Assembly (NCBI RefSeq): GCF_014844095.1
Contig: NZ_CP062163.1
Span: forward strand, 4,311,501 to 4,375,500
DNA length: 64,000 nt
Direction of reading: 5' to 3'
From: Brevibacillus sp. JNUCC-41
GTDB taxonomy: Bacteria; Bacillota; Bacilli; Bacillales; DSM-1321
Positions within the stretch are counted from its first letter, which is position 1, and each line of letters opens with the position of its first letter. The position numbers were made by a program, and so were the translations under genes. Positions 7,745 to 59,092 of the stretch are shown here, piece after piece. The notes under the pieces were generated by a model. The model worked only from the letters and a program-made list of their open reading frames with translations. It did not search any database and had not been told where the DNA came from.

Positions 7745-9415
7745 TTAGTAAATTCCCACCGAATCAAATCCGGCAGCAGCTGCAGCCTCTTCCTTGCTAC
7801 CTTCACCATAAATATCAATTGCAGACTGAACAATAGCCTTACGAGCGTCACTAAAATCGGAATTTGGCGTTAAATAAATGCTTATTGCACGATAGTAGAT
7901 TTGTCCTAACTTGTGCCTTCCAATTTCTTGACCAATCAAGTATGCAGCGTGGTTTGTAATCGAGGAGTTAACATGGACACCGCCGCCATCTACCGAAGTT
8001 GGCATGTGATAAAATTCATCCATATGAGCCGGATAGACTCCACTGCCATATGCAGCTCTTTCCGCATTACTTACTACAACACTGTTTGGATTACTCAAGC
8101 TGCGCAATCTCGTTACACCGTCAGCTTTAGCAGCTGGTGCCATAATATCCTCACCCATTTCCCAATCATCGTCGTCAACAAGTGCACCAAAGACGTCAGC
8201 AAATGATTCGTTTAGTGCTCCAGATTGATTGCGGTAAACTAAATTTGCTGTATGAGTGATGACGCCATGAGTCATTTCGTGAGCAGCAACGTCAAGACCG
8301 GCTGATAGTGAAATAAAGAACTCACCGTCACCATCCCCATAGGTCATCCAACGCCCATTCCAGGATGCATTGTTGTAATTATTGCCATAGTGGACCTTGG
8401 AAATGATTGCCATTCCTTCACCGTCAAGAGAATTTCGGTCATGCTCATTAAGGTAATAATCATATACCTTTTCCGAATTATAGTGTGCATCGACAAGAGC
8501 CCGATCATAGTCGCTGATAAATGCAGCAGAATTCCCCACATAGAGAGTATCATTACTGGAACTATTATCATTTTTAGCATCAAACGTAAGTATTCCATCA
8601 AGACCATTATGAGAGTAATCAGCTAACGCAAACTGAGTTCCAGATTTAGGTTCCTTCACTTGGGTAATATGTAATTCCCTGTGAGCACCATGTACCCCTT
8701 TTCCAGCACCTTTTTGTGTTTTCATTTCATCAGCATGCATTAAACCATTATACTTATCGATGATTTCTCCCGTGTTTGCATCCACAAAGACAAACCAGTT
8801 GCCAGGCTCATCCCCCATGAAGTTAACATTCACTTTATAAGCTGTATGATTCTCTCCTTCAAAAGGATAGACTACAAGCTCAGAAGTTGGCTCATACGTT
8901 AGCTCTTCAGGGGCATTGACAGATGATAGTGCCTGATTTAGTGCTGCATCACTGCTTAAGGAGGCAGTCGTGTACACCGCATCATCGGCAATCGTCTGAT
9001 TTACTCTTCCGTTGACGGATACGACTTCATTATTCTTGTTAAAATGAACAATAACTTCGGTTCCTTCTACGTTCACTCCATTTATTGATTGATTAAAGCG
9101 AACGTGGGTCATACCGAGTTTATCTTTTTGTGAATCTTTTACTTTTAGGTTTTTATCTGGATTTTTAATTCCGGTTTTACCTTCGTTTTTCTTTAAATAA
9201 TTTAGTGCATTGGAAGGGTTGCTAGAAGAGAATTTCTCAGCAAATCGCTCCTTCACAAAAACAGGAACGCTTGCCTTCTCATTCCACTTTTTAGAAGCTT
9301 GTACACTACTAGCCACCTTCGAATCAACCGGCTTCGCAAATACATTACCGGCTGGGATAGAACCTACCAACAACGCTGACGATAGAACTGCAGGAACAAT
9401 AAACTTTTTCTTCAA
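7745..9415 (-). CDS. Secreted thermolysin-family (M4) neutral metalloprotease
   Basis: A 556-residue bacillolysin-like preproenzyme. Residues 1-27 form a signal peptide ending ...NVFA. Residues ~40-230 are the FTP/PepSY-type propeptide that acts as intramolecular chaperone and inhibitor. The catalytic domain carries HEMTH near residue 380, with NESFADVFG supplying the third zinc ligand, and GGGVHVNSSITNHAAYL with the active-site His. It is an extracellular zinc endopeptidase that degrades proteins. Translation starts at TTG with GGGGGGT upstream. The gene is monocistronic, with its own terminator. The length matches NprB/NprE-type enzymes, and key residues are all present. Confidence 0.92.
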   Translation of the reverse strand: MKKKFIVPAVLSSALLVGSIPAGNVFAKPVDSKVASSVQASKKWNEKASVPVFVKERFAEKFSSSNPSNALNYLKKNEGKTGIKNPDKNLKVKDSQKDKLGMTHVRFNQSINGVNVEGTEVIVHFNKNNEVVSVNGRVNQTIADDAVYTTASLSSDAALNQALSSVNAPEELTYEPTSELVVYPFEGENHTAYKVNVNFMGDEPGNWFVFVDANTGEIIDKYNGLMHADEMKTQKGAGKGVHGAHRELHITQVKEPKSGTQFALADYSHNGLDGILTFDAKNDNSSSNDTLYVGNSAAFISDYDRALVDAHYNSEKVYDYYLNEHDRNSLDGEGMAIISKVHYGNNYNNASWNGRWMTYGDGDGEFFISLSAGLDVAAHEMTHGVITHTANLVYRNQSGALNESFADVFGALVDDDDWEMGEDIMAPAAKADGVTRLRSLSNPNSVVVSNAERAAYGSGVYPAHMDEFYHMPTSVDGGGVHVNSSITNHAAYLIGQEIGRHKLGQIYYRAISIYLTPNSDFSDARKAIVQSAIDIYGEGSKEEAAAAAGFDSVGIY

Positions 9416-30143: not shown

Positions 30144-30239
30144 GTTTATATAAATAAATAGAAGAAGAATTAAAAAAGGCAGTCACAAAGACCACCATGA
30201 TTGGGATATAAAGTCACAAATCATCAAATTTTCGTGTGA

Positions 30240-30716
30240 CTCAGATTATTTCTAACTTTTATTTTTGATTTTTTCAATTAGTACTTGTAACTCATCCGGC
30301 CCATGAAACTCAATCGGCGACACGCCTTTATCGAATTCTATTGTATTGGATTCTATCATCAATACATACTTCCCATTGATCTTTCCTAAGTGGATACTGT
30401 CGCCGAAATCGGCTAGAAGTCCTTTGATGGATGTACTGCCTAGCTTCATGCGAAGTTCGGCTTCAGGTGTATCCCTCGACAATCTGGGCTGTGGCTTCGA
30501 CGACCAGATGGGTTTCAAGACGCTCCTGGATTTCACGCTTTTCACTCGTTTCGGTCTTTTTTTCGAATTTGTGCAGTTCGTCACTGTTTTCTTCGAATTG
30601 TGAGGATACATGCTCATAACCATGTGGATGACCTGGTTTTTCATGATTTCCGGCATCGATTCTCCATATTCGACGAATTTCAAGAAGTTCTCGAAGTAGC
30701 GGGCATGTGAGGCCTT
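30240..30716 (-). pseudogene. 5'-truncated, frameshifted copy of the DUF3900 gene
   Basis: The segment is homologous to the 3' ~470 bases of the intact gene at 49118-50179. Its C-terminal part (ELRMKLGSTSIKGLLADFGD, LGKINGKYVLMIES, DKGVSPIEFHG) and its left part (HARYFENFLKFVEYGESMPE) are in frame, but the middle is shifted. Similarity ends sharply at 30716, where unrelated sequence (ENGLLSDEDMVMVDKIVHGK, + strand) begins. It is a recombination scar. Confidence 0.75.
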
Positions 30717-33092: not shown

Positions 33093-33424
33093 GAAAAGAT
33101 GACTCCTTATTAATTAAAGAATTTAGAGGGAACAAGGGAAAAAATAAAAATTGGGGTAGAGTACAAATGTACCTACGAAAAAAGTGGTGGTGTGACCAGT
33201 TCAATTGGTACACCAAATTCGGAGGTATTAGGTAAGTTTATTTATTCTAAGTTTTCTCAAGAACGGGGGCTTAGTACATTGAGCTCTGAAACACAGATAG
33301 GCTTATTTTTCGATAGCTGGAAAAAAAGTTAATAAAGCAAGTCCTTCGACACTAATAACGCATTGATCATTGATTAATATACTCAGTGATTTGTGCGTTC
33401 TTTTCTGTGGAAAGGGGAGTAGTT

Positions 33425-34093: not shown

Positions 34094-34290
34094 GATATAT
34101 ATTCTAATAGGAATATGCAGTGTTTTATACACTTTCTTAGCTATGTGTTGGTCAATGTATATACAAGGAACGTTGGTATATCAATGACGTATAAAAAGAT
34201 GTATGACGGTAATGGTGATATGGCTTCAATAACTGGCAAGCCGTTAATGCAGGCAGTAGAAGCGATTACTGATGCCCAAACAGGTTAACT

Positions 34291-35389
34291 TGAAAGGTTA
34301 ACTTTTAACCTTGTCGTATAGGGATATACGGAAAAATAAACTCGGTTAAATCGGTGAAAATCTTTTATAAAAAATCAATTACCCCATGTTTTGTTATACC
34401 ATATTATGTTAAAATTAGATAATTTTAATTAAGTATAGTAGATTATAACGCGGGGTGAAAACATGGAATTCATATGCCAAGAATGCGGTAAAAAATTTAT
34501 TAAAGGGTATAGCACAGCAAAATTCTGTTCAAATGAGTGTAGATTTAAGGGTGTATCAAAAATCAATAGGAAACTTTCTGATAAAGAATGTGAGTATTGT
34601 AAGAAAGTATTCCGACCTAAAAGCTCAAGAACAAGATTTTGTTCTGTTAAGTGTAGACCTGCAAACAGGGAAAATAAAATTCAAACAAATTGTCTGAAAT
34701 GCGGAAAAGAAATGCACATCATCCCTGCTCGATTGAAGGATGGTAGAGGTAAGTATTGTTCCAAAAAATGTTTTGCTTCTAGAACGGGAGAAACAAATTG
34801 TAAGCATTGCGGAAACAAATTGACCCTTTACCTAAGTGATATTAAAGAAAATAATTTTTGCGATCAAAAGTGTAAAAATGAATGGATGTCTTACACTTTC
34901 AATGGTGAAAATGCTCCTTCATGGCGAGGTGGATGTGATAATTATAGAGGTGAAAATTGGAAATCACAGAGAAGAAAAGCATTAAAACGTGATGGGCATA
35001 AATGTGTACAATGCGGAATACCTGAAAGTGAAGCAAAATTGATGGTCCATCATAAAATCCCTTTCCGTTTTTTTAATGGCAATTATGAAAAAGCTAATAT
35101 TTTAGAAAATCTTGAAACGAACTGTAATTCTTGTCACAGTTCCCAACAATCTCATTTATGGCATCAAGTACCCGAAAAATTCCAATGTTTTTTATAAAAG
35201 ACAATACCGAGGAAAGCCCAACTGGAAACAGTTCGAATCTATAGAGAGCAGAGGGAGGCTAAAGCTTTAAGCTATGCCAATAACACTCGCCATGGGAAGG
35301 TAACAACTACGACCAGAACGGTTGAAGATGTGCTCTGAACCATATGGTGACATATAGAGACAGACAGAAATGACCTGTCTTTTCTTATG
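34291..35389 (+). ncRNA. Group I intron with internal HNH endonuclease gene
   Basis: P1: exon GTTAACT (34284-34290) pairs with GGTTAAC (34296-34302), ending in the required U.G wobble at the splice site. P2: CGTATA / TATACG (34315-34330). CTCGGT (34341-34346) pairs with ACCGAG (35206-35211), and the HNH gene is looped out between them. The 3' core follows: GAGGAAAGCCC, AACTG-GAAA-CAGTT, then P7 AGAGCA (35245-35250) / TGCTCT (35331-35336), perfectly complementary but different from the common GACTA/TAGTC. The region after P7 (CTCTGAAC, then CATATAG) resembles the 3' domain of the Twort phage intron. The 3' end is uncertain by ~10 bases. The exon host gene is not clear. Confidence 0.72.
34463..35197 (+). 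CDS. HNH homing endonuclease with zinc-ribbon array
   Basis: A 244-residue protein. Residues 1-140 hold four consecutive C4 zinc-knuckle units (CQECGKKF...CSNEC, CEYCKKVF...CSVKC, CLKCGKE...CSKKC, CKHCGNK...CDQKC), followed by the HNH nuclease: RDGHKCVQCG, LMVHHKIP, NILENLETNCNSCH. It should recognise and cut intron-less alleles of the target site to spread the intron. GGGGTG lies before the ATG. It lies entirely inside the group I intron loop. All Cys and His residues look intact. Confidence 0.85.
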   Translation: MEFICQECGKKFIKGYSTAKFCSNECRFKGVSKINRKLSDKECEYCKKVFRPKSSRTRFCSVKCRPANRENKIQTNCLKCGKEMHIIPARLKDGRGKYCSKKCFASRTGETNCKHCGNKLTLYLSDIKENNFCDQKCKNEWMSYTFNGENAPSWRGGCDNYRGENWKSQRRKALKRDGHKCVQCGIPESEAKLMVHHKIPFRFFNGNYEKANILENLETNCNSCHSSQQSHLWHQVPEKFQCFL

Positions 35390-35509
35390 CCTTGATTTCC
35401 AATGCGAAAGATGTTCCTCCTTATAGAAATTGTGAAACTTTCCATTGATCAGGTATGTCTTTCTTCCGGTGAGGTTTTTTACACAGCTGATTAAAGATTG
35501 TATTTTCAT
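35267..35509 (-). CDS. Hypothetical protein, possibly truncated, 80 aa
   Basis: The ATG overlaps the stop of the upstream gene (TAATGA), indicating coupling. The first ~40 codons (QSLISCVKNLTGRKTYLING, then FHNFYKEEHLSHWKSRHKK) look coding. The C-terminal 40 codons run antisense through the 3' end of the group I intron, so the original gene was probably cut by the intron-bearing DNA. Family unknown. Confidence 0.35.
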   Translation of the reverse strand: MKIQSLISCVKNLTGRKTYLINGKFHNFYKEEHLSHWKSRHKKRQVISVCLYMSPYGSEHIFNRSGRSCYLPMASVIGIA

Positions 35510-35709
35510 TACCGTATAGGATTGTTAATAACATAGTTAGAGATTTCAATTCTACAATCCTTTAAACTATGACAAGTTGCTAAATATTTTTCAGGAGAAT
35601 GAGGGGATTTAAAACTGACAGAATACGAACCATCCAGTTGAGGTCCCTCTGTTATAAAATAGAATTCATGACTTTTAAATTTTTTGTGACTTAATGCTAA
35701 CAATCTCAT
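35509..35709 (-). CDS. Hypothetical protein, 66 aa
   Basis: GAAGGAGTG lies 7 bases before the ATG at 35709. The product is a small basic protein (LLALSHKKFKSHEFYFITEG, then YSVSFKSPHSPEKYL) of unknown family, translated together with the gene that follows. Confidence 0.5.
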   Translation of the reverse strand: MRLLALSHKKFKSHEFYFITEGPQLDGSYSVSFKSPHSPEKYLATCHSLKDCRIEISNYVINNPIR

Positions 35710-35756
35710 TTTAGCCACTCCTTCAAATATAATAAGTTAATTATAATATAACTGTT

Positions 35757-36299: not shown

Positions 36300-36551
36300 A
36301 TGAAATCGAAATTACATGTCGAAGAAGTTTTTGTAGCTGAATTAACACAACAAGATTTCCCAGTATATCTGCTTGGATATGACCCGTTTACTGATCAAAA
36401 TTTTAAAGGGAAATTTGTTTACCGTGATGGTGAATTATTACCAGTATCATATGAAACCTCAAGGAATAAAAAAATTAGCACTCGGTTTGTAACAGAAGCA
36501 GTTTCTTATATGAGGCGCTATAAAGAGGATTATGAGAAGATAAGTAACTGA
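36300..36551 (+). CDS. Hypothetical protein, 83 aa
   Basis: AAAAGGAGG lies 8 bases before the ATG, and TTGACA (36242) offers a -35 box. The product is soluble (HVEEVFVAELTQQDFPVYLL, then a basic C-terminal helix VSYMRRYKEDYEKISN). No motif is recognised. Confidence 0.6.
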   Translation: MKSKLHVEEVFVAELTQQDFPVYLLGYDPFTDQNFKGKFVYRDGELLPVSYETSRNKKISTRFVTEAVSYMRRYKEDYEKISN

Positions 36552-37650: not shown

Positions 37651-37847
37651 GATAATTTCCTCCTTTGAAAAAATTGATATGTAACCTTTATTTATAATTC
37701 GACATAAGGAATGATTGTCCTTTTTTCTTTTTTAGAAGGATGCGAATGGTGAGATAACTTGTGTGGTACTGAAAACTAAATAGCAATCTAATTCTACGTC
37801 GTCCAAGAGGGCGGCTTTTTTTTTTGCAATCAAAGGGGTGATGGACA

Positions 37848-38075
37848 TTGGAAACTGATATCTTAAGCATGTTTTTAAAAGAAGGTGTATTCGCAGCCTT
37901 ATTTGTATGGATGTTGTACTCAACAATGAAAACTAATAAAGAAAGAGAAGCGAATTATCAAGCTGTAATTGAAAAGAATCAAGACGTAATTGAAACACAA
38001 GCTCAAGCATTCTCAACACTGGCTCAAGATGTAAATGAAATTAAACAAATCATCGTTCAAGATAATAAGAATTAA
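37848..38075 (+). CDS. BhlA/UviB-type holin
   Basis: A 75-residue protein with one N-terminal membrane helix (MFLKEGVFAALFVWMLYSTM) and a helical cytoplasmic tail (NQDVIETQAQAFSTLAQDVN), the layout of BhlA/UviB holin-like proteins. TTG start with AAAGGGGTG upstream. It lies 17 bases before an amidase gene, a classic phage lysis cassette in which the holin gives the lytic enzyme access to the wall. Confidence 0.8.
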   Translation: METDILSMFLKEGVFAALFVWMLYSTMKTNKEREANYQAVIEKNQDVIETQAQAFSTLAQDVNEIKQIIVQDNKN

Positions 38076-38092
38076 CCAGGGAGGTATTTAAA

Positions 38093-38753
38093 ATGAATGA
38101 ATTCGTTATTTCAAGTGGACACTCTAAAGTTATACGTGGTGCAAGTGGATATATTGATGAAGTAGATGAAGCAAGGATGGTTGTACCGAAAGTTGCAGAA
38201 TATCTAAAAGAATTAGATTGTAAAGTACATACATTTAATGATGATACGTTAAAGACACAACGGGATAATATCAAGACAATTGTAAAATATCACAATGGTA
38301 AAAGTCGGGATTTAGATGTATCTGTACATTTTAATGCTGGTACAAAGGAAGTCGGTGGTACAGAAGTGCTTTATTATGGAGACGGAAATAAAGCATTGGC
38401 TAAAAGTGTAGAAGGCTATTTCAGAAGCACTTGGAATTAGTGATTGTGGTGCGAAGAAAAGAACTGATCTCGGATTTTTAAAGGGAACAGCTAAACTAGC
38501 TATTCTGATTGAAATATGTTTTGTTGATACTAAAACCAATGCTGATGCATACAAAAAGAACTTCGATAAATGTTGTAAGGCTATAGCTGAAACTTTATCA
38601 GATAAAAAGTTGAAAGAACAAGCTAAACCAGTTGATAAGAAAAGTGTTTTACATAAGGTACAAGTCGGAGCTTTCTCTGATGAAAAGAATGCAACTAAGT
38701 TAACGGCAGGGTTAAAGAAAAAAGGATATTCAGCTAGTATTGTAAAAGGGTAA
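38093..38753 (+). pseudogene. N-acetylmuramoyl-L-alanine amidase with SPOR domain, frameshifted
   Basis: GGGAGG precedes the ATG. The N-terminal part is an Amidase_3 domain (FVISSGHSKVIRGASGYIDE and VSVHFNAG with the zinc His residues). A frame change near 38412 is needed to continue with LGISDCGAKKRTDLGFLKG, IEICFVDTK and a C-terminal SPOR-like repeat (HKVQVGAFSDEKNATKL), ending at 38753. Without the frameshift it would be a ~220-residue lytic amidase. As read, the product ends early and lacks the last catalytic region. Confidence 0.75.
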
Positions 38754-39314
38754 AATCATAACCCATACTCCTTTTTGAGTATGAGCTATTTTGTCTTAAT
38801 CATAAATAAATCACTATACTAGTAGGTCTGAAAAACTATTCCTCATAAGTCAAAACTTCATTTTTGTTGCCCTAAATAAATCTTTTGCAGCCTCAATGTC
38901 ATAACTTATTAAATGACTTTTAACATGAATCTGTGATTGTTCAGGGTTTAATTTCCTAATAGTTTTTTAGTAGGTGGATTTTTCAATTTCAAAGAATCAT
39001 AGTTATTTGATTACTTTTTTAACAGATTTGGATTTAATGGAAAACTAGGTTCACTTGATATGCTATTAATTAAGTCAGAGAGTTTGATCATGCATGTAGC
39101 CTATCGATTTAAGATGAAGCAGAAAAGTTATATTAATGATTTAAGGAAGGATGTTCAACAATTGAAGGTAGTGGCTAATTATTTTAAATGGTATATAGAC
39201 ATAGTCCCAGTGCTAGTATTATGGAATATTATTAACCAAAATTTGTTTACAAATACAATTTATGGTTTATAATATTATACGTGATAAAAATAGTTAAAAG
39301 GGAGTGGTGAGAAC
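38754..39314. other. Intergenic region with gene scraps
   Basis: A small hairpin (CATACTC / GAGTATG, 38764-38784) follows the amidase. On the minus strand a startless frame (SQIHVKSHLISYDIEAAKDL, ending 38859) is a likely phage-gene scrap. A 70-codon plus-strand frame at 39060 has no ribosome binding site and is not called. Confidence 0.35.
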
Positions 39315-43189: not shown

Positions 43190-43917
43190 TTACATTTGAA
43201 GATTAACAGTTATAGATATGTTTTGTAAATCCATTTTATTTTTTAACTTCAACGATCCACCATTAGATTGAATTACATTTTTAACATTTTTAGGTTTGAT
43301 TTGTAGTGTTGATCCGCCTAACCTACTTTCAATGAAGTCAGCAATAGAAGGGGATTGATAAATTTCAAGTTTTATACTTTTAACAGCATATCGAGTAGGA
43401 GTAATAATTAGGATAGAAGGGAATACCTTTTTATCTGGCTTTTGCCAAGGTTCATCTTTCCAATCACCTGTATCATAATAAGTTTCATAAAGATCAATTT
43501 TCTTTTGCATGACTACTTTCGTATAAACATTTCGCTGAACTTCAATAAATATTGGATTAAACCAAATAGCAAAGATGTCTGGTTCTATTGTGCCTTTGTC
43601 ACCATATTTAGGCTCAATCATGAGGTTTTTAGTTTCTCTGTGTGCTTTCATTTCAATAACAGTATCGACTAGTTCAAGAAAGTGGGGTATTTTAGTTGAG
43701 TCTGGTTTAATATTACACAGTCAACAGTGAAGTAAACGTATGGAGAGTGAAGAGTACTGCATTTGATAAAGTTATCTCTTGTTAAACACTTTAAAACGCT
43801 ATTAAATGAATTTATAGGATTCTTAAGATGCTTAAAATGCAATTAAACTATCTGGTTTCTTGACATCATTCTGAATTGTCTCAAGTCATTAATAATGGCT
43901 TTATCCCTTTGGTTCAC
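43190..43917 (-). pseudogene. Replication-relaxation family protein, broken
   Basis: GAGGTG precedes a GTG at 43917 that starts NQRDKAIINDLRQFRMMSRN. An in-frame TAA at 43845-43843 follows QIV, then LHFKHLKNPINSFNSVLKCL and SPYVYFTVDCV continue. A frameshift near 43700 is needed to reach KIPHFLELVDTVIEMKAH and the C-terminal domain (YGDKGTIEPDIFAIWFNPIF, ILIITPTRYAVKSIKLEIY). Replication-relaxation proteins assist DNA mobilisation of plasmids and conjugative elements. Two lesions make it inactive. It overlaps the FtsK-like gene, as in related operons. Confidence 0.7.
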
Positions 43918-44940
43918 TATCGAACACCTCATCTAATGAAAATTCATTTACCTTTCGATCTGCGACATCTTCAAGCTCTATTTTTTCTTGTTTCACTTTT
44001 AATGGATCAAGTAACCTTTTAGAGGTAATTGAATCACTATTTCTTTACCTTGAATTGAAAGTATCATCCTTCCTGTATTAAATAATTCAACTGATTGCTT
44101 CAATCCACTTATTTTTGCATTCGTTTCATCTGATTGTTTACCTGATATCCTAAAGGTAAGGTTATTTTTCAATTGTCCACCTAATGATTTCGCATCACCA
44201 CGTTGCATTGACAACATCAGATAAACACCATTAGAACGACCTATACAAGATATACTTTCAATTATCTTCATTATTTTTGGTTTATCTTTAAGCAATAAAA
44301 TATCATCAATACAAACCACAATTGTAGGTAGCTTCACTTCTAATTCATAAATACTTTCAACGTCCATCGCATCAAGTAATTTACCTCTTCGAACCATTTC
44401 TTTTTCAATTATTTGAAGGGGAGGGAGGAGTAACTTAGCATCCATAAAAACACCCATTACATGAGGTAAACGTTTATATATCCCGAATTCAGAGAACTTC
44501 AAATCACCAAACAAGAATTTTACTTCATCAGGTGAGTTATGCAGAATCAATGAAGTCAATATCCCCCTAATCAATGATGATTTTCCACTTCCAGTTGTTC
44601 CTGTAAGCAACATATGATGTTCTTCTACCATGTCTTTTACATTCATCTTACCTGACCTATCTACACCACACATAATAGGGACTATTTTATCCTTGCAATG
44701 TGGCTGGATCTTTTTAAAATCTATCGCGATATTAAAACATGTATGAAGGGACTCTGAAACATCATAATTTCCTTGATGTTCAAAAAACTTTTCCAAGAGA
44801 GCTATAGAAAGTAACCCAACACCCATTAGGCAAATTACAGGGTCTAGCATTACAAATGGACTGACTGAATACATGTTAATGTTCGGAATAGCTTTCCATT
44901 TTTCCTTCTTTTTAACCTTAAAAGTTCCGTCCTTAAATGA
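43901..44940 (-). pseudogene. FtsK/SpoIIIE-type DNA translocase (conjugation coupling), broken
   Basis: Two N-terminal hydrophobic segments (PFVMLDPVICLMGVGLLSIA) precede a P-loop ATPase: Walker A LLTGTTGSGKSS, Walker B IVVCIDDILLL, and an SMQRGDAKSLGGQLKNN stretch. It is probably the coupling/translocase component of an integrative conjugative element, like ConQ/YdcQ. The C-terminus is frameshifted near 44010 (LPLKG, then LLDPLKVKQEKIELEDVADR in another frame, ending at 43901). The frame extends upstream of the ATG at 44874 into KKKEKWKAIPNIN, then is cut by unrelated DNA near 44940. Confidence 0.72.
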
Positions 44941-48879: not shown

Positions 48880-49117
48880 AAACAAGTTCTATAAGAAAAG
48901 AGGCTAAGTAGCAGTATTTACTTAGGCTCATGATAAGCATGCATTTCTAAAAAATATATTTAACTTCTTAATTGAAAATAGGATTGGAAAAAATAAATAA
49001 ACTGGAGAAACTACTAACAAAAGTTAGTAGTTAGATTTAAGAGTATTAATAGTATTTTAAGGTCTAAAATTGATTACATACTGCTCACATTTTTGCTCAC
49101 AAAACTCGGACTATTTC

Positions 49118-50179
49118 TTAACTTTTATTTATTATTTTTTCAATTAGAATTTGCAAATCATCCGGCCTATGAAATTCAATCGGCGAGACACCTTTATCGA
49201 ACTCTATCGTATCGGCTTCTATCATTAATACATACTTCCCGTTAATCTTGCCTAAATGGATGCTTTCGCCGAAATCGGCTAGAAGTCCTTTGATGGATGT
49301 ACTGCCTAACTTCATGCGCAGTTCGGCTTCAGGTGTATGCTCGACAATCTGGGCCGTGGCTTCGACGACCTGATGGGTTTCAAGTCGTTCCTGGATTTCC
49401 CGTTTTTCACTCGTTTCCCAGATTTCCAGGTCTTGTTCGAATTTGTGCAGTTCGTCACTGTTGTCTTCGAATTGTGCGGATACATGTTCATGGACCATGT
49501 GGATGACCTGGTTTTTCATGATTTCCGGCATCGATTCGCCATATTCAACGAATTTCAAGAAATCTTCGAAGTAGCGGGCATGTGAAGCCTGGTGAATTTT
49601 CAGTTCGCCTTCTTCGACCATTCCTTCTTCGGGCATGTAGGGGTATTGAATCGATTTCATATTTTTAGTGGTGATTGCCATTTCAACGTGCCTAATCAAG
49701 GTTCGTTCATCCGAAATGGAAGCAACTTTAGGCTCGAAATCACATTTTAATAAGAATACGAATGGTTCATCAAGATATTTCGATAATTTAGCCGAAGCAA
49801 TTATGAAGACACCGCCACGGACGGCACTTGTATCAATATAGGACCGCGTGAATTGTTCATTTTCCTCTTGGAATTCCTCTTTCGTTTTGGCATAGCGAAC
49901 ACGGTTAAATACATTGTAATTAGGGTTGGAATCAAGTGCATGTCCTTCTTCGACAATAAAAGAACCGAGTTTCGTCGGTATTTGTTCAGTTTTTGGATGA
50001 CGGTCCACTTTTCGCTTGGAAATCTTCATCAATTCCCCATCCAAAAAATCCTTTAGAGGACTTTCCTCGTATTCCTGGGTATCAAGTGTTTGGAAATGTT
50101 TAAAACGCTTATCAGCTTGATCGCCTTTTCCTTCAACTTGGATTAGATAAAAAGATAGATAGGTAATTGTAAAATCCAT
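49118..50179 (-). CDS. DUF3900-family protein
   Basis: A 353-residue protein of the Bacillus DUF3900 family. ATG at 50179 (AAGAAGGTGA upstream) gives the usual N-terminus DFTITYLSFYLIQVEG. Conserved blocks include KHFQTLDTQEYEESPLKDFL, SAVRGGVFIIASAKLSKYLD, MAITTKNMKSIQYPYMPEEG and SHARYFEDFLKFVEYGESMP. It is cytoplasmic with no known function. A 3' fragment of the same gene lies at 30240-30716. Monocistronic. Confidence 0.82.
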   Translation of the reverse strand: MDFTITYLSFYLIQVEGKGDQADKRFKHFQTLDTQEYEESPLKDFLDGELMKISKRKVDRHPKTEQIPTKLGSFIVEEGHALDSNPNYNVFNRVRYAKTKEEFQEENEQFTRSYIDTSAVRGGVFIIASAKLSKYLDEPFVFLLKCDFEPKVASISDERTLIRHVEMAITTKNMKSIQYPYMPEEGMVEEGELKIHQASHARYFEDFLKFVEYGESMPEIMKNQVIHMVHEHVSAQFEDNSDELHKFEQDLEIWETSEKREIQERLETHQVVEATAQIVEHTPEAELRMKLGSTSIKGLLADFGESIHLGKINGKYVLMIEADTIEFDKGVSPIEFHRPDDLQILIEKIINKS

Positions 50180-51981: not shown

Positions 51982-52098
51982 GCGATGAGCTAATTTGTGT
52001 AAGTCGTAGAACATGCTTTTAGCTAAACGTCGGGATGTGGCCTGACGGTTCTGCGCCACAAACGCATCAAAGACGCCTGCTGCGTGCAGGCGTCTTTT
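51982..52098 (+). ncRNA. Probable ~117-nt small RNA
   Basis: Between a good promoter and a strong terminator lies a GC-richer segment without an ORF. Long-range pairing is possible: GTAGAAC with GTTCTGC, enclosing ACGTC / GACGGT, and a GTGGC / GCCAC element. It is convergent with the tatA gene and its terminator ends at the tatA stop codon. No riboswitch family is recognised. Confidence 0.5.
52070..52098. terminator. Strong terminator, shared by the small RNA and tatA
   Basis: AAGACGCCTGC / GCAGGCGTCTT stem followed by T5; the stop of tatA (minus strand) lies at its right edge. Confidence 0.85.
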
Positions 52099-52653: not shown

Positions 52654-52665
52654 TATTATAACTAT

Positions 52666-52895
52666 ACAAGCTGCGTTGTTCGTAATGATAATTAAGTTTT
52701 AACCTTTAAGCTGTAATAGGGAGTTTTATATCGAGACAGGAATGTTATGCCTCGTCACTGACTTGGACAACAGGATCGTTTCTGCAAACACCCACTTTGA
52801 GGAGTGGTGGTTTAAAACTTTCTTACTTGAATACGGCAATTGCGGCTTACTACTTTTATAATTAGAAACCAGTTCCGATAAGGGACTGGTTTTTT
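52666..52895 (+). ncRNA. Probable structured non-coding RNA, ~230 nt
   Basis: TTGCAA, a 17-base spacer and TATTAT (52631-52659) form a good promoter, and AAACCAGTtCC / GGACTGGTTT plus T6 (52866-52895) a terminator. Between them no ORF exists but several stems do: CGAG / CTCG around 52733-52755, CACT-TTGAGG-AGTG near 52793-52806, and GAGTTTTA with TAAAACTT enclosing them. Size and extended hairpin shape are 6S-like, but I cannot confirm that identity. Confidence 0.5.
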
Positions 52896-58793: not shown

Positions 58794-59092
58794 ATGGGTA
58801 TTATAGATTTAATAACAATTGCGATGAAGAGAAGAGTAGATAAGATCAATTCTTTATAGAGAGCTCCGTTTGGTGGGAAGGAGCAAGAATGATTTATTGA
58901 ACCAAGACTCTGAGTGTCATATTGGAACCCTATTGGGGGGGATGGTGTGACGGGAGCTCCCGTTACAGAGCTAAGGTATAGAATTATTGTACCTGATAAG
59001 ATTAGTATGGCGACATATTAATAAAATGGGGTGGCACCACGATTATAAATCTCGTCCCCAAGACACAGGTCTTGGGGGTGGGATTTTTTTGT
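58794..59092 (+). ncRNA. T-box riboswitch (tRNA-sensing leader)
   Basis: All main elements are visible. Stem I begins with GCGATGAAGAGAAGAGTAGAT (AGTA loop-E strand), its distal arm is AGAGAGCTCC...TTGGTGGGAAGGAGC, and the specifier loop is TTGAACCAAG. The T-box core TGGGGTGGCACCACGA lies at 59027-59042, followed by the terminator CCCCAAGAC / GTCTTGGGG with T7. The specifier reads ACC (Thr) or CCA (Pro) depending on register; ACC is favoured because specifiers usually end in C. Uncharged cognate tRNA would stabilise the antiterminator and turn on the MFS exporter downstream. Confidence 0.88.

Follow-up and report, generated by a model that had tools for sequence, protein, structure and literature searches.

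Our results indicate that the analysed DNA, a window of 64,000 nucleotides from Brevibacillus sp. JNUCC-41, most probably holds the relic of a group I intron of the phage type, whose P5 loop carries an HNH endonuclease gene. The intron would have resided in a tape measure gene like that of Geobacillus phage TP-84, where prophage decay and a deletion left it unable to finish splicing. The relic is very probably dead. The original prediction of a complete group I intron with an HNH gene in a dead prophage survives in part: the intron, the HNH gene and the decayed prophage are there, but the intron is not complete, as its 3' end is missing, the wobble at the likely 5' splice site is absent and two invariant pairs are broken. 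What had been described as an intact ribozyme is better read as a dead representative of a type already known.

The genome consists of a single contig of 5.49 Mb, and the G+C content of the window is 35.7%. Prophage relics span 33.3-38.8 kb of the window and include ORFs resembling a small terminase subunit, a BhlA holin and an amidase or endolysin (Table 1). An ORF at 33386 has a weak PHROG match to 'virion structural protein' (E 0.002), while none of the 20 window ORFs scanned had a portal or capsid protein as its best PHROG match. Phage records searched with the surroundings of the feature yielded nothing besides the TP-84 stretch, and a search of plasmid records gave no match. Near the prophage relics, minus-strand ORFs at 43190-44871 resemble a replication initiation protein and FtsK/SpoIIIE, like part of a conjugative element. 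Elsewhere, a repeated gene is found at 30214-30715 and 49104-49643, both of which resemble one region of a congener (L124 of genome G031, ~7765-8327).

Table 1. Features of the intron relic and its surroundings, in window coordinates
Feature	Position	Strand	Basis or remark
Terminase-small-subunit-like short ORF	33720		PHROG E 1.3e-10
5' exon relic: tape measure protein gene fragment, in-frame TAA at 34286-34288	34184-34298	+	tblastn, TP-84 tape measure protein
P1-like hairpin AAGGTTAA/TTAACCTT	34294-34312	+	Likely 5' splice site after T34298; by-eye comparison with L071
P2 hairpin, strands 34315-34320/34325-34330	34315-34330	+	Helix reading and lowest-energy fold
P4 5' strand TCGGT	34351-34355	+	Pairs with 35206-35210; same letters in L071
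P5 5' strand	34361-34374	+	Pairs perfectly with 35188-35201 across the ORF (14 pairs)
HNH endonuclease ORF, 244 aa, repeated Cys-pair motifs, open	34463-35197	+	Between the P5 strands
P5 3' strand, overlapping the ORF end	35188-35201	+	Helix reading and lowest-energy fold
P4 3' strand ACCGA	35206-35210	+	Helix reading and lowest-energy fold
P6/P6a region, hairpin AACTG/CAGTT; P6 itself weak	35211-35240 (P6a 35220-35233)	+	Helix reading
P7 5' strand GAGCA	35246-35250	+	Complementarity; outside lowest-energy fold
P8 candidate CGACC/GGTTG	35310-35324	+	5' strand doubles as the sole P3 partner found
P7 3' strand TGCTC	35331-35335	+	Position set by covariance-model alignment
P9 and P9.1 region, one broken pair per hairpin	35340-35379	+	Homology; outside lowest-energy fold
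Putative deletion junction; the GTAACA end is missing, as are the 3' exon and the tail genes beyond it	35380-35411	+	Comparison with relatives and L123
BhlA holin-like ORF	37848		Pfam/PHROG match
Amidase/endolysin-like ORF	38093		Pfam/PHROG match
BsrF RNA	51982-52094		Rfam
6S RNA	52665-52852		Rfam
T-box leader	58815-59062		Rfam

The host exons had been called not obvious, but the 5' exon is recognisable. In a tblastn search, the TP-84 tape measure protein matched 34214-34300 with 26 of 29 residues identical, preceded by a weaker match that begins at 34187. At the DNA level, identity to the TP-84 gene is 79% over 34214-34294. Judged from its sequence, the host gene of the intron is a TP-84-like phage tape measure gene. 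The in-frame TAA stands at a place where TP-84 has a sense codon. No other part of the TP-84 protein had a significant tblastn match in the window, and when the genome was searched with 200 residues spanning the insertion site, the exon relic was the sole tape measure match.

The homology ends at ~34298-34300, and the exon end at 34298 was placed by eye from L071, a contig from IMG/VR whose tape measure gene is interrupted by group I-like introns. The motif at the insertion site, GELER(L/M)KEFG, is unbroken in 22 of 22 related loci, a set that was partly retrieved with a pattern of residues following the site and is hence biased toward uninterrupted copies. The exon homology runs into the intron within this conserved motif, and there is no sign of the move to a new site that had been suggested. 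At the splice site homologous to that of L071, again compared by eye, the U is likely paired with A and not with G, and the U.G wobble of a group I P1 is thus missing. The wobble previously reported at 34284 belongs to another P1, which lies within the exon, in the stretch with tape measure homology. This alternative P1 is created by a ten-base direct repeat, AGGTTAACTT, at 34282-34291 and 34295-34304, the two copies flanking GAA at the exon end.

The core helices P4, P5, P6a and P7 are able to pair in the order of a group I core. The 14-bp match of P5 was equalled in none of 1000 simple shuffles. When the arms flanking the ORF were folded together as two strands, they reached -86.2 kcal/mol versus -59.3 (SD 4.5) for 100 shuffles, none of which was as low (z = -5.9). 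The lowest-energy fold includes P1, P2, P4, P5, P8 and four of the five P6a pairs. It holds 0/5 pairs each of P7, P9 and P9.1, and in it part of the P9 strand is bound by 35287-35296; therefore, these three helices rest on homology and not on energy. In P9 and P9.1, two pairs that are invariant in 16/16 relatives read C.A and A.C in the window.

Several details of the predicted fold could be compared with these helices. P2 is present as described. ACCGA(G) does pair with a CGGT on the other side of the ORF, but comparison with L071 and with L126, an HNH-bearing intron in another tape measure gene, shows that the partner is the 5' strand of P4 and not the CTCGGT at 34341. No P3 partner independent of the P8 strand was found. 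The best P3 duplex, on the P8 strand, was matched by a fraction of 0.512 of 500 shuffles as low, in a scan that separates a real P3 poorly (of 10 controls tried, seven were scored, with fractions from 0.002 to 0.432, and three were unscored). This hints that one strand is claimed by both P3 and P8. The exact 5' splice site, P3 and the last hairpin of the relatives are assignments made by eye.

One might object that there is no intron, and that hairpins surround the HNH gene by chance. In line with this objection, P7, P9 and P9.1 are missing from the lowest-energy fold, and the Rfam search proposed in the original prediction came out negative: at the gathering threshold the window yielded the T-box, BsrF and 6S RNA and no group I intron, while permissive scans gave no match to Intron_gpI even at E 10. 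However, among seven relatives used as control, Intron_gpI matched four (L007, L078, L097, L113) and missed three (L071, L126, L133), so that the negative result for the window is weak. Moreover, a covariance model of the region from J8/7 to the 3' end, built from 16 relatives with the window excluded, matched at 35318-35411 with 45.4 bits (E 2.1e-8), versus E 0.92 for the next best match in the window. This agrees with the phage-type 3' domain that had been predicted. The strong pairing of the arms and the position within a conserved tape-measure motif likewise argue against chance. Barring a double coincidence, the model match and the exon homology already contradict it, and we regard chance hairpins as hardly credible.

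The relatives behind the model were drawn from 47 loci, of which 16 passed a motif filter besides the window. One of these, L094, was discarded as a chance match; manual addition of L004, overlooked by the filter, brought the set back to 16 relatives. They are not independent, several being near copies, and the end of L073 is misplaced by a few columns in their alignment. The P9.1 motif occurs in 15 viral contigs. When one mismatch was tolerated, it also occurred in 52 of 397 genomes of the order, in a scan in which a reversed control pattern matched some genomes too; 30 places from this latter scan served as loci. Two candidates from another pattern scan, L106 and L107, resembled chance matches and were discarded. 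Genome-wide, the covariance model had a single match (E 1.9e-6). In other genomes of the family it had four matches, with GTAACA downstream in three and L112 as the fourth. A search for the 3' domain gave weak matches in five of 100 other genomes; of these, L006 falls outside the P9 region and is not intron-like.

The intron had been predicted to end at 35389, but homology to the relatives ends at 35379. GTAACA starts 31-40 bases past the start of the P9.1 motif in 16/16 P9.1-bearing relatives, after a hairpin that we recognised by eye and that is absent from the consensus fold. In the window, GTAACA is absent at the expected distance, and the next one downstream is at 36489. Another GTAACA, at 35300 between the 5' strand of P7 and P8, looks like a misplaced intron end and may be chance. 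Outside the P9.1-bearing set this ending is not universal: L126 has GATAACA, and the phage locus L114, which is without this P9.1 motif, has no GTAACA in the stretch viewed. A 3' end and a 3' exon are both missing, and no tape measure sequence is found on the right. Because the 3' end, with any recognisable 3' splice site, and the 3' exon are gone, the relic should not join exons. A guide sequence that might predict the lost exon through P10 pairing was rejected, as L071 does not fit it.

An alternative explanation might be that the intron is complete and active, with an unusually short 3' end and a 3' exon after 35389. P2, P4, P5 and P7 can indeed pair, the P9/P9.1 domain is recognised, the HNH ORF is open, and L126 illustrates that an intron may end otherwise. 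Yet this would make the window an exception to the 16 P9.1-bearing relatives, and it would have to accommodate a U-A pair at the likely splice site, the loss of an invariant pair in each of P9 and P9.1, and the conflict between P3 and P8. Furthermore, the right flank resembles prophage DNA from beyond the tail module. An active intron is therefore very unlikely. The perfect P7 and P5 and the open ORF do speak against a dead relic, and could reflect either recent death or some remaining selection.

The right flank also suggests how the relic lost its end. Window positions 35412-35752 are 84% identical to DNA of congener G035 (L123), where the matching DNA begins 35 bases after the stop of a tail spike ORF (PHROG E 3.2e-231). 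This ORF closes a tail module that also encodes sheath, tape measure and baseplate proteins. After ~2 kb without a match to L123, the similarity resumes at 37762-38790, with 87% identity, through the holin/endolysin region. From these sequence comparisons, a deletion very probably removed the 3' end of the intron together with the 3' exon and the tail genes that followed. How far it reached is read by analogy from G035, whose tail is of the sheathed kind.

The ORF looped out of the intron core contains an HNH domain (Pfam PF01844, E 2.5e-6, above the Pfam cut-off), also matches PHROG 1271 (E 2.2e-27), and has a predicted cutting activity. Its best relative is the HNH protein of L126, with 89 of 251 aligned positions identical. 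Among 13 HNH relatives examined, 11 are followed by GTAACA, L126 lies in a tape measure gene with GATAACA, and L138 lies in no recognisable intron. Comparison with solved structures gave nothing credible. Possibly, the RNA is dead while the HNH protein was retained as a free-standing homing endonuclease whose cutting targets are the intron-less tape measure genes of phages entering the cell. This would be consistent with an ORF of 244 aa that stayed open amid decay and still scores above the Pfam cut-off, and phage homing endonuclease genes are described near structural genes (PMC10448857). Protein scans of viral and genome contigs, however, gave one short match (L027) and no close copies with which selection on the protein could be tested. 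We consider such retention unlikely, and prefer the reading of a dead intron whose ORF has so far stayed open.

P7 deserves separate attention. In group I introns, the outer G-C pair of P7 forms the guanosine site. In the window its strands are complementary, as predicted, and read GAGCA/TGCTC versus GACTA/TAGTC in many relatives, with two adjacent pairs altered on both strands. GAGCA occurs once in 35195-35330 versus 0.26 times expected, a number that is not strong by itself. The assignment is nonetheless credible because of the position of GAGCA and because L126 has GCGTA/TACGC. The change had been taken as a compensated one that argues for a working fold. Its two-sidedness is confirmed, and as P7 of L126 is also altered on both sides, the fold was probably under selection at one time. 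One may speculate, with some doubt, that the window and L126 represent a lineage of phage introns that Rfam misses, specialised on tape measure genes, with an HNH gene in the P5 loop and a pair-wise drifted P7. That a P5-loop ORF and a drifted P7 occur together in two separate tape-measure introns is mildly of interest. A literature search, with most subscription journals outside its reach, found nothing on an ORF in a P5 loop.

The relic most probably arose as follows. An intron with an HNH gene in its P5 loop would have inserted at the ...GELERLKEFG... motif of the prophage tape measure gene. By comparison with its family, the whole intron would once have followed the usual guanosine-started splicing in two steps, and the HNH protein would have carried it into copies of the gene that had no intron. 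A deletion with its right edge just past the tail module would have taken everything after P9.1, the 5' exon would have acquired a stop, and conserved intron pairs would have been lost. What could persist, at best, is expression of a free-standing nuclease from the HNH ORF.

This case shows that identification of the exon and a check of the 3' end can separate a dead from a live intron. It also brought out the misses of the Rfam group I model (three of seven relatives), and adds another instance of tape measure genes as intron targets. Judged by titles, the literature on truncated or degenerate introns that we found contained nothing on phage intron relics.

Among known systems, L126 (genome G300), from another genus and family of the order, resembles the window in its ORF between the P5 strands, its layout of P4 and P5 (helices by our own reading), its P7 altered on both sides and the class of its host gene. 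Its group I-like intron splits the PhageMin_Tail domain PF10145 of a tape measure protein into positions 1-128 and 129-201. In contrast to the window, L126 has both exons, lacks the P9.1 motif, ends in GATAACA and occupies another site in another tape measure family. L071, whose last exon matches a PHROG tape measure protein (E 1.4e-14), is similar in P4, J3/4, the place of P6, and the sequence and order of P9.1. It differs in its short P5 without an ORF and in having P3, the GTAACA end and, by eye, U.G at P1. Positions 1-2260 of L071 apparently represent a tape measure gene with two or three consecutive group I-like introns, as read by eye.

Group I introns in ribonucleotide reductase genes of Bacillales (L007, L078, L133 and others) carry related HNH ORFs, and L007 and L078 share the P9/P9.1 domain with the window. 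Unlike the window, these introns have a GACTA-type P7. L127-L134, L136 and L137 differ in the position of their ORF, which as judged by eye is in the P8 region. The host gene matched PF02867 in L133 (E 1.5e-11) and weakly, below the cut-off, in L078 (E 0.005), the one relative among the 16 whose downstream exon was tested; beyond these two, ribonucleotide reductase as the host gene is our own reading.

Lactobacillus phage JCL1032 also has an intron in its tape measure gene. Group I introns are known from a Bacillus phage (PMC4299906), and introns bearing homing endonucleases in tape measure genes are already known (PMC10448857). In phage ICP1, as described there, the tape measure gene is spliced round an HNH gene and is functional (PMC10448857). 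By that description, ICP1 shares the class of host gene with the window, where the intron resides in a prophage relic and is very probably dead.
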